A stretch of 64,000 nt of DNA, taken from the NCBI GenBank assembly GCA_009783265.1, contig WRHM01000003.1, positions 124,001-188,000 on the forward strand, given 5' to 3'. Shown here piece after piece: positions 5,680-11,766 of the stretch. The stretch is from Oscillospiraceae bacterium (lineage in GTDB: Bacteria; Bacillota; Clostridia; Oscillospirales; WRJC01). The notes beneath the pieces are model-generated. The model was not told the DNA's origin and did not search any database. It saw only the letters and a program-made list of their open reading frames with translations. Position 1 is the first letter of the stretch; each line of letters starts with the position of its first letter. The translations under genes were made by a program, and so were the position numbers.

Positions 5680-6609
5680 ATGGCAGTAAGCGCAAGAGAC
5701 GTCGCCGATTTAAGAGCGAAAACAGGCGTCGGTATGATGGATTGTAAAAAAGCGTTGGAGGAAACAAACGGGAACTTCGACGAAGCTATAAAATTATTGA
5801 GGGAAAAAGGGCTTGCGGTCGCGGCTAAAAAAGCAACCAGAATAGCGGCTGAGGGCGTTGTGGATATATTATACGACGAAACGTCGAACACATCAGTCAT
5901 GGCTGAAGTAAATTCAGAAACTGATTTTGTCGCCAAAAACGAAAGCTTTCAGGCATTTGTCAAGGGCTGTCTGAAAGTTATATTAAAAGAAAAGCCCGCA
6001 GATGTTGCGGAATTATTGACCAAACCGTTCGGAAACGGAATAACTGTAGATGAAGCGTTGAAAGAGCAGATTTTGCAAATCAAAGAAAACCTGTCAATCA
6101 GAAGATTTGTGATAGTTGAGGGCGTAGTCAGCACTTATGTACACAATAAAGGCGCGATAGGCGTTATAGTAAAAGTTGACGCTGACGAAAAAGCTCTGGC
6201 AGATAGTGGATTTAACGAATTTAAGAAAAATCTCGCGTTGCAGATCGCGTCTATGAGCCCGGTTTATGTAAGCAGGGACGATGTTCCAATGTCAGTTATA
6301 GAAGAAGAGCGGGAAATAGTTTCGACTCAGATCAAAAACGACGAAGCGAACGCTAAAAAACCGGCGAGTGTCATTGAAAAAATGGTCGAGGGGAAAATAC
6401 GCAAATATTACGAGGATAACTGTTTGCTCGAACAGGGCTATGTAAAAGAAGATAAACTGAGCGTTGGCGGCTATGTCGAGAATTATAAAAAGCAAGTCGG
6501 CGCAGATGTAAAAGTCGCGGTTTTCTACAGATTTGAAAAAGGCGAGGGTATTCAGAAGAGAGAAGACAATTTTGCCGAAGAAATCGCGAAGCTAACGGGA
6601 CAGAAATAA
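5680..6609 (+). CDS. tsf: translation elongation factor Ts
   Basis: A 309-aa protein. The N-terminal UBA-like domain contains DLRAKTGVGMMDCKKAL, and the core contains the family motif EVNSETDFVAKNE. EF-Ts exchanges GDP for GTP on EF-Tu. The start at ATG 5680 follows a CGGAGG site; the 21 in-frame codons upstream lie in the repeat and leader. It ends just before a GC-rich terminator. Confidence 0.98.
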   Translation: MAVSARDVADLRAKTGVGMMDCKKALEETNGNFDEAIKLLREKGLAVAAKKATRIAAEGVVDILYDETSNTSVMAEVNSETDFVAKNESFQAFVKGCLKVILKEKPADVAELLTKPFGNGITVDEALKEQILQIKENLSIRRFVIVEGVVSTYVHNKGAIGVIVKVDADEKALADSGFNEFKKNLALQIASMSPVYVSRDDVPMSVIEEEREIVSTQIKNDEANAKKPASVIEKMVEGKIRKYYEDNCLLEQGYVKEDKLSVGGYVENYKKQVGADVKVAVFYRFEKGEGIQKREDNFAEEIAKLTGQK

Positions 6610-6625
6610 TATTAAAATAAAGTTT

Positions 6626-6662
6626 ATCGGGCAGGAAAAAAACCTGCCCGTGAATTTTTGTG
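6626..6662 (+). terminator. tsf intrinsic terminator (left copy of a 37-bp direct repeat)
   Basis: CGGGCAGG pairs with CCTGCCCG around an A-rich loop and is followed by a T-run (TGAATTTTTGTG). A copy differing by one A lies at 7435-7470, so the two copies bracket the toxin-antitoxin cassette. Confidence 0.85.
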
Positions 6663-6728: not shown

Positions 6729-7016
6729 ATGGAATTTTTAACTGTTCGCGATTTTAGAGCATCGTCTAAAAATGTTTGGGATAAGTTAGCCCAAACAGGC
6801 GAAATTGTTGTTACTAATAACGGAAAACCAACTGCTTTAATGCTAAATATTGAAAATGGCAACTTTGATGAGCTTTCGAGGGCGATCAGGCAGGCAAAGG
6901 CAATGATAGCTTTAAATTCTATTCGGGAAGAAGCTGCGGAAAGAGGGTTTTTAAGCGATGACGAAATCGAAGCGGAAATACAAGCATACCGTCAGGAAAA
7001 GCGTGACAAAAAATGA
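6729..7016 (+). CDS. Phd/YefM-type antitoxin
   Basis: A 95-aa protein. The N-terminal DNA-binding Phd fold is clear: FLTVRDFRASSKNVWDKLA, then EIVVTNNGKPTALML. A helical C-terminal tail of about 45 residues should wrap the toxin. These antitoxins neutralise the toxin and repress their own promoter. The stop overlaps the toxin start by 4 bases (ATGA), a usual sign of coupled translation. A TAGGAG site precedes the ATG. Confidence 0.9.
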   Translation: MEFLTVRDFRASSKNVWDKLAQTGEIVVTNNGKPTALMLNIENGNFDELSRAIRQAKAMIALNSIREEAAERGFLSDDEIEAEIQAYRQEKRDKK

Positions 7017-7429
7017 AATCGGACGATAAAATAAAAGTCGTTATTGATACAAATGTGTTAGTCTCGGCGCTTTGGTCGAAACATAACAGAGTTACCGAAA
7101 TTCTTTCGCTCGTCATTAACGACGCGTTATTGGCGTGTTACGACGTCGCGGTTATGCAGGAATATCAGGAAGTATTAAGCCGTCCAAATTTAGCGTTTCA
7201 CTTTGAAAAATCGAGAGTAAATGAAATCATAAATAAAATTAAAATTGACGGATTAAGCGTTGTAGTCCGCTCAAGTTCAATGCCGCTAAAAGACGAAAGT
7301 GACCGGGCTTTTTATGATGTGGCAAAAGCGTGCAACGCATATCTGATTACCAGTAATATCAGGCATTATCCAAATGAACCGTTTATCGTCGATCCATTCG
7401 ATTTTATTAAACTGATAATTGGAGATTAA
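7013..7429 (+). CDS. PIN-domain toxin (COG1569-like)
   Basis: A 138-aa PIN nuclease. Acidic residues that would bind the metal are visible: IDTNVLVSALW near residue 11, the Glu of MQEYQEVLSRP, DESDRAFYDVA near 97-107, and the later LITSNIRHYP segment. PIN toxins cleave RNA when the antitoxin is degraded. It forms an operon with the antitoxin upstream and ends 5 bases before the right-hand repeat copy. Confidence 0.88.
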   Translation: MKSDDKIKVVIDTNVLVSALWSKHNRVTEILSLVINDALLACYDVAVMQEYQEVLSRPNLAFHFEKSRVNEIINKIKIDGLSVVVRSSSMPLKDESDRAFYDVAKACNAYLITSNIRHYPNEPFIVDPFDFIKLIIGD

Positions 7430-7434
7430 CAGAC

Positions 7435-7470
7435 ATCGGGCAGGAAAAAACCTGCCCGTGAATTTTTGTG
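7435..7470. terminator. terminator hairpin, right copy of the direct repeat
   Basis: 36 bases identical to 6626-6662 apart from one missing A in the loop. It terminates the toxin gene and lies only 6 bases from the end of the convergent lipoprotein gene, so it may serve both. Confidence 0.85.
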
Positions 7471-7476
7471 CGTTTG

Positions 7477-7917
7477 TTATTTTTTAATATACTTAATATC
7501 ATTATACGTAAAAGTTAATGTATTTTCAGTAAGATTAAAATAATCAGTTGCTATGTCGCCGTTCGAGTAAACAAATTCTATTTGTTTATAACCCAATCCT
7601 GCATTTGATACAGAATACTTTCCCTTTCTCACAATACTATAATATTTATGGCCATTGTATTCGCCAATAAATTTTATTTCATCGTAATATTTATCTTCAT
7701 TCAAGAGTTTAGATTCAGATAAATTTGTATATTGGGTTTTCGTAAACGACTTTCCGGAAAATTTTATACTATCCTTATAAGTTTTTCCATTAATCTCACG
7801 ACCATATTCTCTTTCCCATGTACCGGAAAGCCCTCCCCCGCCGCCGCAAGCCGCAAACATAGAAAACACCGAAATAATTATAACCGCCGCTAAAAAAACC
7901 GAAACAATTTTTTTCAT
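7477..7917 (-). CDS. putative lipoprotein
   Basis: A 146-aa protein. The N-terminus MKKIVSVFLAAVIIISVFSM is a signal peptide, followed by FAACGGGGG with the likely lipidated Cys24. The mature part is Gly- then Tyr/Lys-rich and predicted beta-rich (GTWEREYGREINGKTY), resembling small clostridial lipocalin-like lipoproteins. The start at 7917 has a GGGAGG site; earlier in-frame starts extend past it without one. The function is unknown. Confidence 0.75.
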   Translation of the reverse strand: MKKIVSVFLAAVIIISVFSMFAACGGGGGLSGTWEREYGREINGKTYKDSIKFSGKSFTKTQYTNLSESKLLNEDKYYDEIKFIGEYNGHKYYSIVRKGKYSVSNAGLGYKQIEFVYSNGDIATDYFNLTENTLTFTYNDIKYIKK

Positions 7918-8042
7918 AAAAATTCCTCCCAAAATATGTATTAAATATTTTTTCAGGAGAAATAATAAATGCCGGGCATGGAAAATAAAACCACACACGG
8001 CATAAAAATTATCTCTAATTAAATCACAATCATAAAATACAC

Positions 8043-8071
8043 TTGACTATATAAGTCAAATGATGTATAAT
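8043..8071 (+). promoter_or_regulatory. sigma-A promoter of a second structured RNA
   Basis: TTGACT (8043-8048), 17-base spacer, perfect TATAAT (8066-8071). Transcription would begin near 8078 at the first base of the outer RNA stem. Confidence 0.8.
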
Positions 8072-8077
8072 ATAATT

Positions 8078-8175
8078 GCGGGTTACGAGAAATTCGATGT
8101 GTATGGTGGGACTGCACCTGTTGCATGCCGTAGGGTGTTGCAAGCACTCTACGGTCGCCCGCATTTATTATTTCT
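8078..8175 (+). ncRNA. candidate three-way-junction RNA upstream of a radical SAM gene
   Basis: An outer GCGGG/CCCGC stem (8078-8082 with 8158-8162) encloses two hairpins. One is a 10-bp stem (8128-8137 with 8145-8154, one G-U pair). The other is a GGTG/CACC stem (8105-8108 with 8115-8118) that may extend. A T-rich stretch follows the outer stem. No ribosome site or reading frame fits. About 100 bases separate it from the radical SAM gene, so it could be an independent small RNA or a riboswitch-like leader. I do not recognise the family. Confidence 0.55.
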
Positions 8176-8268
8176 CTACAGACACATTTTAACATATATT
8201 TATATTATTGTCAAGACATAGATTAAAAATTTCTATGTTAATTTTTTACGAAAAACAGGAGTAATTTT

Positions 8269-9273
8269 ATGTCCAATTACAAAATCAACTCGCTATATTC
8301 AGGAGCGGGGATTATAGTTACATACAAATGCTCGGCAGCTTGCCTGCATTGCTGTTATTCTTCGTCGCCCAAAAGAAGCGGCGACTATATGTCAAAAGAT
8401 ACGGCTGACAAAATTTTCGCGCTGCTCAAAAAAATGGGGTGCTATTCTGTTCACATAGGCGGCGGCGAGCCGTTTATGAATTTTGATAAATTATTAGAAG
8501 TCTGCAAATCCGCAAGAGAGCATAATATTTCTATTGATTATATCGAGACAAACGCTTCATGGTTTACGGATAATATCAGCGTTTCCGATAAACTTAAAAA
8601 TTTAATATCTGCCGGAGTTGATTGCCTGTTAATATCAATCGATCCTTTTCATAACGAATTTGTGCCGTATATCAAGATAAAAAATCTGCTGAAATGCTGC
8701 GAAAAAAACGGCATGGGGACTTTTTTGTGGCAGTCTAAATTTGAGAGAATAATCCGGCAGCTTGACGAACATGCTACTCATTCACTCTCTGAATATGAAG
8801 ATATATTCGGCGGCGATTTTATAAAATCAATTTCTGAAAGTTACGGGCTGGGTTATAACGGCAGGGCTTTGCGGATACTCGAAAAATTTACAAAAGATAA
8901 AAAACCGTATGATTATTTTCTGAGGGATAATCAGTGCGGCGACAGAATAAAATCCCTGCATCATTTTCACGTTGATATGGACGAAAATCTGATTCCCCCA
9001 TCTTGCAACGGCTTCAGGGCGAATATTTTTGATTTGTGCAGCGGGGGTCTCAACAGTGACAAGTATATATACTTTACATCTGTAATAAATAACGGGCTTG
9101 AAGAATTATTTAAAAAAGCAAAAGATCTGGGATTTATCCCGAAAAGTGAGGGATATGCCTCAAAATGCGCGTTATGTTTTGATATGAAAAAATATATATG
9201 CGAAAATATTAAAGCAAAAACCGGACTGGAACCGGTTGACATAGGCCCCGCGGGATTTTTTACTGAAAGTTAA
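8269..9273 (+). CDS. radical SAM protein of unknown function
   Basis: A 334-aa protein with the radical SAM cluster motif Cys21-x3-Cys25-x2-Cys28 (CSAACLHC) and the SAM-binding GGGEPF segment near residue 64. The C-terminus has Cys299, Cys302 and Cys310 (CALCFDMKKYIC), which could ligate a second cluster, though a full SPASM pattern is not clear. Internal HATHSLSEYEDIF and FHVDMDENLIPPSC are not motifs I can place. No peptide substrate or partner enzyme is adjacent. It lies downstream of the structured RNA at 8078 and has an AGGAG site. Confidence 0.85.
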   Translation: MSNYKINSLYSGAGIIVTYKCSAACLHCCYSSSPKRSGDYMSKDTADKIFALLKKMGCYSVHIGGGEPFMNFDKLLEVCKSAREHNISIDYIETNASWFTDNISVSDKLKNLISAGVDCLLISIDPFHNEFVPYIKIKNLLKCCEKNGMGTFLWQSKFERIIRQLDEHATHSLSEYEDIFGGDFIKSISESYGLGYNGRALRILEKFTKDKKPYDYFLRDNQCGDRIKSLHHFHVDMDENLIPPSCNGFRANIFDLCSGGLNSDKYIYFTSVINNGLEELFKKAKDLGFIPKSEGYASKCALCFDMKKYICENIKAKTGLEPVDIGPAGFFTES

Positions 9274-10590: not shown

Positions 10591-11766
10591 ATGGAAAAAA
10601 TATTATTTACGTCTGAATCTGTTACTGAAGGGCATCCGGATAAATTATGCGACCAAATATCGGACGCTATACTTGACGAACTCCTGAAAGGCGCCCCTAT
10701 GTCAAGAGTCGCGTGCGAAGCCACAGCGACTACAGGGCTTGTCATGGTCATGGGAGAAATAACAACTGAGACATACGTCGATATTCAGGAGATTGTGAGA
10801 AACACAATCGGCGAGGTTGGCTATAAAAACGCGAATTACGGGTTTGATTCGATAAATTGCGCCGTTATAAGTTCTATACATGAGCAGTCGCCGGATATTG
10901 CGCTGGGCGTGGATAAATCTTATGAGGCGAAAAACGGTGAAATGTCTGATTTTGACACGGGAGCCGGAGATCAGGGCATGATGTTTGGGTATGCGTGCGA
11001 CGAAACCCCGGAATTAATGCCCCTGCCGATTTCACTCGCCCATAAGCTCGCCAAGAAACTCGCCAAAACAAGAAAAGCAGGAATTTTGGAATATCTCAGG
11101 CCTGACGGTAAATCGCAGGTCACGGTCGAATATATCGACGGCGTACCGAAAAGAGTTGACACGATAGTCGTGTCTACGCAGCATGACCCCGATATTGCGC
11201 TTGACAAAATAAAAAAAGATATTGTAAGAGAAGTTATAATTCCGGTAATCCCCGAAAATTTTATAGACGATAAGACTAAAATATACGTAAATCCCACAGG
11301 GAGATTTGTTATAGGTGGTCCGGCATGCGATTCAGGGTTGACCGGGAGAAAAATAATAGTTGACACATACGGCGGATATGCCAAACATGGCGGCGGGAGT
11401 TTTTCGGGTAAAGACCCTACAAAAGTTGACCGGACGGCGGCATACGCGGCGCGTCACGCCGCGAAAAATATCGTAGCGTCGGGGCTTGCGAAAAAATGCG
11501 AGATTCAGATAGCTTACGCGATAGGCGTTGCGAAACCTGTATCTGTCATGGCAGACACATTCGGGACGGGAAAACTTCCGGATTCGAGATTATCTCAAAT
11601 AATAACTGAAGTGGTGGATTTAAGGCCGGCTGCGATAATCGAGAGATTTAAGTTGCGCCGTCCTATTTATAAAGCGCTTGCGGCATACGGCCACATGGGG
11701 CGCGAGGATTTAGATGTGCCGTGGGAGAATTTAGATTTAGTTGATGTTTTGAAGGACATGAAATAG
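10591..11766 (+). CDS. metK: S-adenosylmethionine synthetase
   Basis: A 391-aa protein that makes S-adenosylmethionine from methionine and ATP as a homotetramer. Signatures: [20 protein letters not shown] near residue 9, the loop [12 protein letters not shown] near 128, and the phosphate-binding [19 protein letters not shown] near 267. The length is normal. It has its own short-leader promoter and no riboswitch. Confidence 0.98.

Follow-up and report, generated by a model that had tools for sequence, protein, structure and literature searches.

The locus described here lies in a window of 64,000 nt (the whole stretch of DNA that was analysed) and holds two promoters that face each other (Table 1). 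The one on the + strand agrees with the consensus at 11 of 12 positions (8043-8071), and the outer stem of a folded RNA, the cloverleaf, begins seven bases past its -10 box. Its counterpart on the - strand opens a leader in which the complement of the cloverleaf is followed by an intrinsic terminator and then by a gene with a ribosome-binding site. A first-pass annotation of the window had proposed both the strong + promoter and a compact RNA that begins with its outer stem. In these respects it placed the RNA correctly; the facing promoter, its leader, and the gene behind it had escaped its notice.

Table 1. Features of the two facing units, in window coordinates
Feature	Position	Strand	Remarks
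Antisense-RNA promoter (predicted)	-35 TTGACT 8043-8048; -10 TATAAT 8066-8071	+	TTGACT-17-TATAAT
Putative antisense RNA, four-way junction	8078-8176	+	fold, covariation, G-U bias
Closing stem	8078-8083/8157-8162	+	
Three hairpins	8086-8096, 8097-8126, 8127-8155	+	
U-rich tail of the + RNA	8163-8176	+	3' end inferred
Leader promoter	8186-8214	-	-35 TTGACA 8214-8209, -10 TAAAAT 8191-8186; start near 8179
P1, 5' strand	8161-8176	-	leader 5' end, GAGAAATAATAAATGC
X2, putative antiterminator segment	8095-8108, core 8099-8106	-	CACCATACACATCG
P6, intrinsic terminator hairpin	7969-8003	-	
P6, 5' arm	7998-7991	-	GTGTGTGG; pairs with X2 (predicted)
Terminator U-tract	7959-7968	-	TTATTATTTC
P1, 3' strand	7957-7972	-	GCATTTATTATTTCTC; end of P6 plus U-tract
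Ribosome-binding site	7924-7930	-	GGGAGGA
Controlled gene (predicted)	7477-7917	-	146-aa putative lipoprotein, no Pfam match

A Phd-like antitoxin and a PIN-domain toxin are encoded side by side in the interval from tsf to the element (6729-7429, +). Near-identical terminator hairpins (CGGGCAGG..CCTGCCCG) follow tsf (6629-6661) and the PIN gene (7437-7470), the former with a loop that is one base longer, which suggests a small duplication. On the other side, a radical SAM protein is encoded at 8269-9273 (+); it shows 70-74% identity within the genus, and its nearest NCBIfam model, YydG, scores far below the cut-off.

Fold and strand of the cloverleaf RNA

The minimum free energy of 8078-8175 is -39.6 kcal/mol, against a mean of -27.2 for shuffled sequences (z -4.0; 1 of 200 shuffles was as good). 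Eleven copies, taken from all three genus genomes, were aligned: 89.7% of the cells pair and 12 of 34 pairs change on both sides, a number reached by 3 of 500 shuffles. With 44 distinct copies, in an alignment that had been fitted to the structure, 29 of the 34 pairs vary on both sides (265 cells vs 64 when shuffled, matched by none of 500 shuffles), and the small CGA/UCG hairpin at 8086-8096 is conserved, with 97.7% of its cells paired. The + strand junction RNA of the first-pass annotation is thus real as a fold, but the three-way junction it had drawn is in fact a four-way junction with three hairpins.

Since both strands of an inverted repeat can fold, the + and - strands were compared. 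For the 11 copies, RNAalifold with RIBOSUM gave -54.8 for the + strand and -38.3 for the - strand, and G-U occurs in 62 cells vs A-C in 10; in a 45-row alignment, these counts are 237 and 14. Because of the folding energies and the bias of G-U over A-C, we assign the cloverleaf to the + strand, where it had been put from the outset. The - strand as the structured one, an idea derived from the P1 inverted repeat, is ruled out for the cloverleaf by the same energies and bias; for P1 and P6, on the other hand, - strand structure is retained.

No tRNA gene was called on the element, and Rfam 15 gave nothing over it at the gathering score, in the window or in 40 further loci. Sub-threshold matches to the element were chance ones only, and the sole Rfam match among the scanned loci is a cobalamin riboswitch away from the element in L148.

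Distribution of the copies, their signals, and their genes

The source genome contains three copies. Searching 59 genomes (its own and relatives) by DNA similarity gave matches in four, namely the three genomes of the genus (G000, G001, and G002) and one other (G017), where the match (L011) is short and AT-rich. The named records of the genus are Oscillospiraceae MAGs, with a termite-gut origin read from the isolate names. A covariance model (R1) made from the 11 aligned copies found 13 copies at E<1e-10 in all three genus genomes and, its E-values being rough, had matches in 47 of 394 genomes of the order at E<=0.1 (36 at E<=0.001). A second model (R2, 45 rows) matched, at E<=0.001, 11 of 391 sampled genomes of the class and 10 of 398 of the phylum, where each count includes the source genome and the class set also has a second genome of the order. 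Genomes carry up to nine copies; nine are found in G762 (L136, L143, L147-L153), a class member in a single 4.4-Mb contig, where the leader genes of L143 and L148 resemble an Xre-type regulator by reading of the translation.

Pattern scanning of genome contigs gave 14 matches: eight are the element (seven in one termite-gut MAG, one in another), and six are ordinary promoters, some adjoining tRNAs, that no covariance model matched. Four pattern scans of viral contigs returned 0, 1, 1, and 0 matches, both on contig L133; phage records gave one match and plasmids none. L133, the only contig of the viral collection with the RNA, looks conjugative or integrative (serine recombinase, helicase after the leader, Xre; all by reading). 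Contig L113 holds two copies in opposite orientation (5935-6045 and 11378-11487) that are identical for at least 330 nt beyond the RNA and are part of a larger duplicated unit; no terminator was detected there. Apparently, the RNA belongs to a widespread, unnamed family of switches in gut and related bacteria.

Both promoters recur with the RNA. All 11 first copies have the antisense-RNA promoter, with a variable spacer, as well as the facing - strand promoter. After dropping one partial row and one doubly fetched copy, 75 distinct copies remained, 73 of them with both flanks; the antisense-RNA promoter was found in 70 of these 73, the leader promoter in 60, and both in 60, compared with 148 of 2000 control windows with one promoter. 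In four loci (L090, L092, L101, and L107), the spacer of the leader promoter often has a palindrome that is repeated farther upstream and is locus-specific; these palindromes resemble operators at which local repressors would bind. Just upstream in L120 and L122 is the gene of a small protein that reads as an HTH regulator.

A terminator (hairpin plus U-tract) is present in 36 of the 41 first-set copies with enough sequence, in 34 at E<=-12, a threshold passed by 27 of 300 random windows and 25 of 213 regions upstream of other genes. In a held-out set from the class and phylum (31 copies, being 34 minus two duplicates and one partial row), 29 have a terminator between antisense target and gene. 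The genes likewise keep to the leader side: an ATG ORF of at least 50 codons with a Shine-Dalgarno sequence (SD), within 330 nt of the RNA, occurs there in 45 of 68 copies; the opposite side has one in 14 of 66, and at random the figure is 171 of 1000. Under this rule, 23 of 68 copies lack one. Copies whose ORF is not convincing (e.g., C1 and two copies in G002) may be remnants.

The genes served vary, from surface proteins and lipoproteins to TnpB, an excisionase-like protein, and others. ORFs were listed for 32 of 44 copies examined, among them one with no trusted ORF at any of several TTG starts, and 20 downstream proteins were searched against Pfam. Matches above the curated cut-off were obtained for 11 of the 20: SLH in four (one also with LRR_5), Cu_amine_oxidN1 in three (two also with NPCBM above the cut-off), RCC1, PASTA/DUF6591, and TnpB in one each, and an HTH (Mga) in a small excisionase-like protein adjoining an integrase-like ORF (both labels are our reading). 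One HATPase-like protein stayed under the cut-off, and eight had no match. The absence of a common function is in keeping with a portable control module. Five copies of one genome (L020, L022, L023, L025, and L083) stand ahead of a family of Cys-rich proteins of ~70 aa (MKK..CxxC), of which one member was searched in Pfam, with no match. An additional hairpin lies past the terminator in L020, L022, L023, and L025; the SD could pair with the 5' arm of this hairpin in two of them, L022 and L023.

Leader pairing and the attenuation model

X2, the leader segment complementary to the 5' arm of the second hairpin of the + RNA, is predicted to pair with the 5' arm of P6: CCAUACAC with GUGUGUGG in the window, and CUCAUAC with GUAUGAG in L096. 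This pairing is locus-specific. X2 binds its own P6 5' arm at -12.24 kcal/mol vs -9.71 for swapped partners (n=36, namely 34 detected terminators and two entered by hand; p=1e-4), and own still exceeds swapped with one copy per X2 sequence (n=25, p=1e-4). The copies are related, so none of the permutation p-values given here is fully independent. As X2 had been chosen by eye on the first set, the class and phylum set was taken as a held-out test, which gave -11.22 for own vs -10.30 for swapped (n=29, p=0.012). X1, the other arm of the same hairpin with the same relatedness, showed no locus-specific signal (p=0.84 and 0.40). Scanning the whole antisense region against P6 for duplexes, with no restriction, gave a median rank of 26 in 100, which is not significant; the aligned X2 test was therefore used in its place.

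The long-range helix P1, between the 5' end of the leader and the base and U-tract of the terminator, is locus-specific as well (own -15.55 vs swapped -8.90, n=65, p=1e-4), also outside the genus (-15.38 vs -8.68, n=53, p=1e-4). Where G-U pairs stabilise the second hairpin of the antisense RNA, the leader has A-C mismatches, so X2 would be freer there. Folding of the nascent leader gave at least four X2:P6 pairs in only 41 of 65 copies. In the window, the full leader, when free, folds with X2 pairing and P1 formed and with 0.0 terminator pairs; blocking the part complementary to the antisense RNA brings this number to 11.9. For the majority of the remaining copies, the equilibrium lies with the terminator even when no antisense RNA is present (median 10.4 terminator pairs), and forbidding it costs a median of 2.4 kcal/mol; the switch would thus have to be kinetic there, acting during transcription.

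Loops diverge more than stems, a pattern to be expected of RNAs that each act on their own leader: identity is 0.32 and 0.53 in loops vs 0.86 in stems among the paralogues of G002, and 0.42 and 0.43 vs 0.79 among the copies of the source genome.

The + RNA, in copies whose sequences combine its fold with two promoters, a terminator, locus-specific X2:P6 and P1 pairing, and leader-side genes, is likely a cis-antisense RNA that controls a transcription attenuator on the - strand leader. It would be an RNA of the RNAI/RNAIII kind, made constitutively, and would act on the leader coming from the facing promoter. During leader synthesis, X2 would pair with the P6 5' arm and block the terminator, and the leader 5' end would engage the base of P6 and the U-tract in P1, whose role is a guess. 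With both helices formed, transcription would read through into the gene, in the window that of the small lipoprotein. Binding of the antisense RNA to the 5' region of the leader would withdraw X2 and the 5' strand of P1; P6 would then fold, and transcription would end ahead of the gene. With hairpin loops that have diverged, the antisense RNAs would each be confined to their own leader. We infer that both RNAs are made, that they bind each other, that binding leads to termination, and that the effect has this direction.

Other readings share part of this evidence. The antisense RNA might act by another route (RNase III cleavage, a translation block, or type I toxin-antitoxin action), with P6 as a plain terminator. 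The same face-to-face layout would serve such a route, and in the window leader the SD is paired in a local hairpin, and UUUCUCC could pair with GGGAGGAA. We consider this unlikely, given a terminator that sits between antisense target and gene in most copies and an X2:P6 pairing that is locus-specific. As to toxins, the downstream proteins (SLH, Cu_amine_oxidN1, TnpB, RCC1) are not small toxins as a class, and the set as a whole does not have the small hydrophobic toxin of type I systems. Less probable still is an independent trans-acting RNA with an incidental leader opposite it. It would account for the promoter and tail of the RNA and for its varied neighbours, but the copies share the facing promoter, terminator, P1, and gene orientation far more often than controls do, and a shared target would conserve the loops, which are the least conserved parts.

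Very improbable is an element acting at the DNA level (a MITE, or a replication or recombination site with inverted repeats): the copies are multiple, contain inverted repeats, and in G353 even include two inside an identical larger repeat, but compensatory changes and the G-U over A-C bias mark an RNA, and no shared ends were seen by eye in the copies compared. Finally, we reject, as having next to no probability, the first-pass proposal of a riboswitch or leader of the radical SAM gene, which adjoins the RNA in the window alone, because its single orthologues in the two sister genomes (G001:C22 and G002:C274) lie on contigs without an RNA copy (the covariance model matched at neither locus) and the remaining RNA copies adjoin unrelated genes, so that the RNA occurs without the gene, a situation that the proposal itself had named as speaking against it. 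The gene tied to the RNA is the one on the opposite strand.

Beyond the antisense attenuator itself, we tentatively suggest, as a reading that could well go either way, an unnamed phylum-wide family of portable, mutually insulated chromosomal antisense attenuators of Bacillota. Each would serve one accessory gene (often for a surface protein or mobile element), and a closed leader fold would keep the two sides of the terminator from each other, the 5' arm being engaged by X2 and the 3' base and U-tract by P1. We recognised no description of a cloverleaf-attenuator family in the literature searched, which included passages of PMC11109978, PMC8040213, PMC2864571, and PMC2965389; an earlier unnamed listing, for instance among the 3161 candidate RNAs in the supplement of PMC8040213, is possible. 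If the insulated-attenuator reading is true, all-or-none expression of surface proteins would be possible, like an RNA-only phase switch, and the question arises whether antisense RNA switches surface proteins of gut Clostridia on and off. A chromosomal family found across the order, and sporadically across the phylum, would make antisense attenuation a general regulatory device of Bacillota.

Comparison with known antisense attenuators

Most known cases of antisense-controlled attenuation come, to our knowledge, from the copy control of plasmids, with a few single loci besides. The layout and logic found here match the antisense-driven attenuation of pT181 and pIP501, as far as the available portions of PMC4878617, PMC4981023, and PMC5415839 describe it. 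In pIP501 (Inc18), the antisense RNA RNAIII comes from a convergent promoter within the 329-bp leader and induces attenuation before repR (PMC4981023, in the part available); the present RNA is comparable in size to RNAIII (136 nt), with a convergent promoter and predicted attenuation ahead of a gene. The pIP501 system controls a plasmid replication gene, whereas the present family is mostly chromosomal and serves many genes. For repC of pT181, the accessible text of PMC4878617 describes an antisense RNA that sequesters an anti-terminator, which would otherwise pair with the 5' part of the terminator stem; here too, the anti-terminator lies in the antisense target and is predicted to pair with the terminator 5' arm. 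Unlike pT181, the present family has a four-way-junction antisense RNA and the long-range P1 helix. According to the same text, insulated antisense/attenuator pairs are hard to engineer from pT181; the copies described here would be a large natural set of such pairs. A non-replication gene as target is shared with RnaG/icsA of Shigella, a single locus under antisense transcription attenuation (PMC5394118, in the part available).

In short, a convergent antisense promoter, a terminator before the gene, and an anti-terminator that pairs with its 5' arm, as predicted from sequence, are held in common with pT181 and pIP501, whereas a plasmid replication initiator as target and homology to a plasmid antisense RNA are lacking: the best score of R2 on pT181 and pAMbeta1 (a relative of pIP501) was 9.1 bits (E 1.3), outside the control region. 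Anti-Q/prgQ of pCF10 is another Gram-positive system in which antisense RNA drives termination in a leader; we liken it to the present family by description, not by sequence, and, unlike the family, it controls conjugation on a plasmid. As there is no model match and the genes differ, the copies are not filed as members of the pT181/pIP501 group; they are best read as a separate, mainly chromosomal family that would work like the pT181 and pIP501 attenuators.
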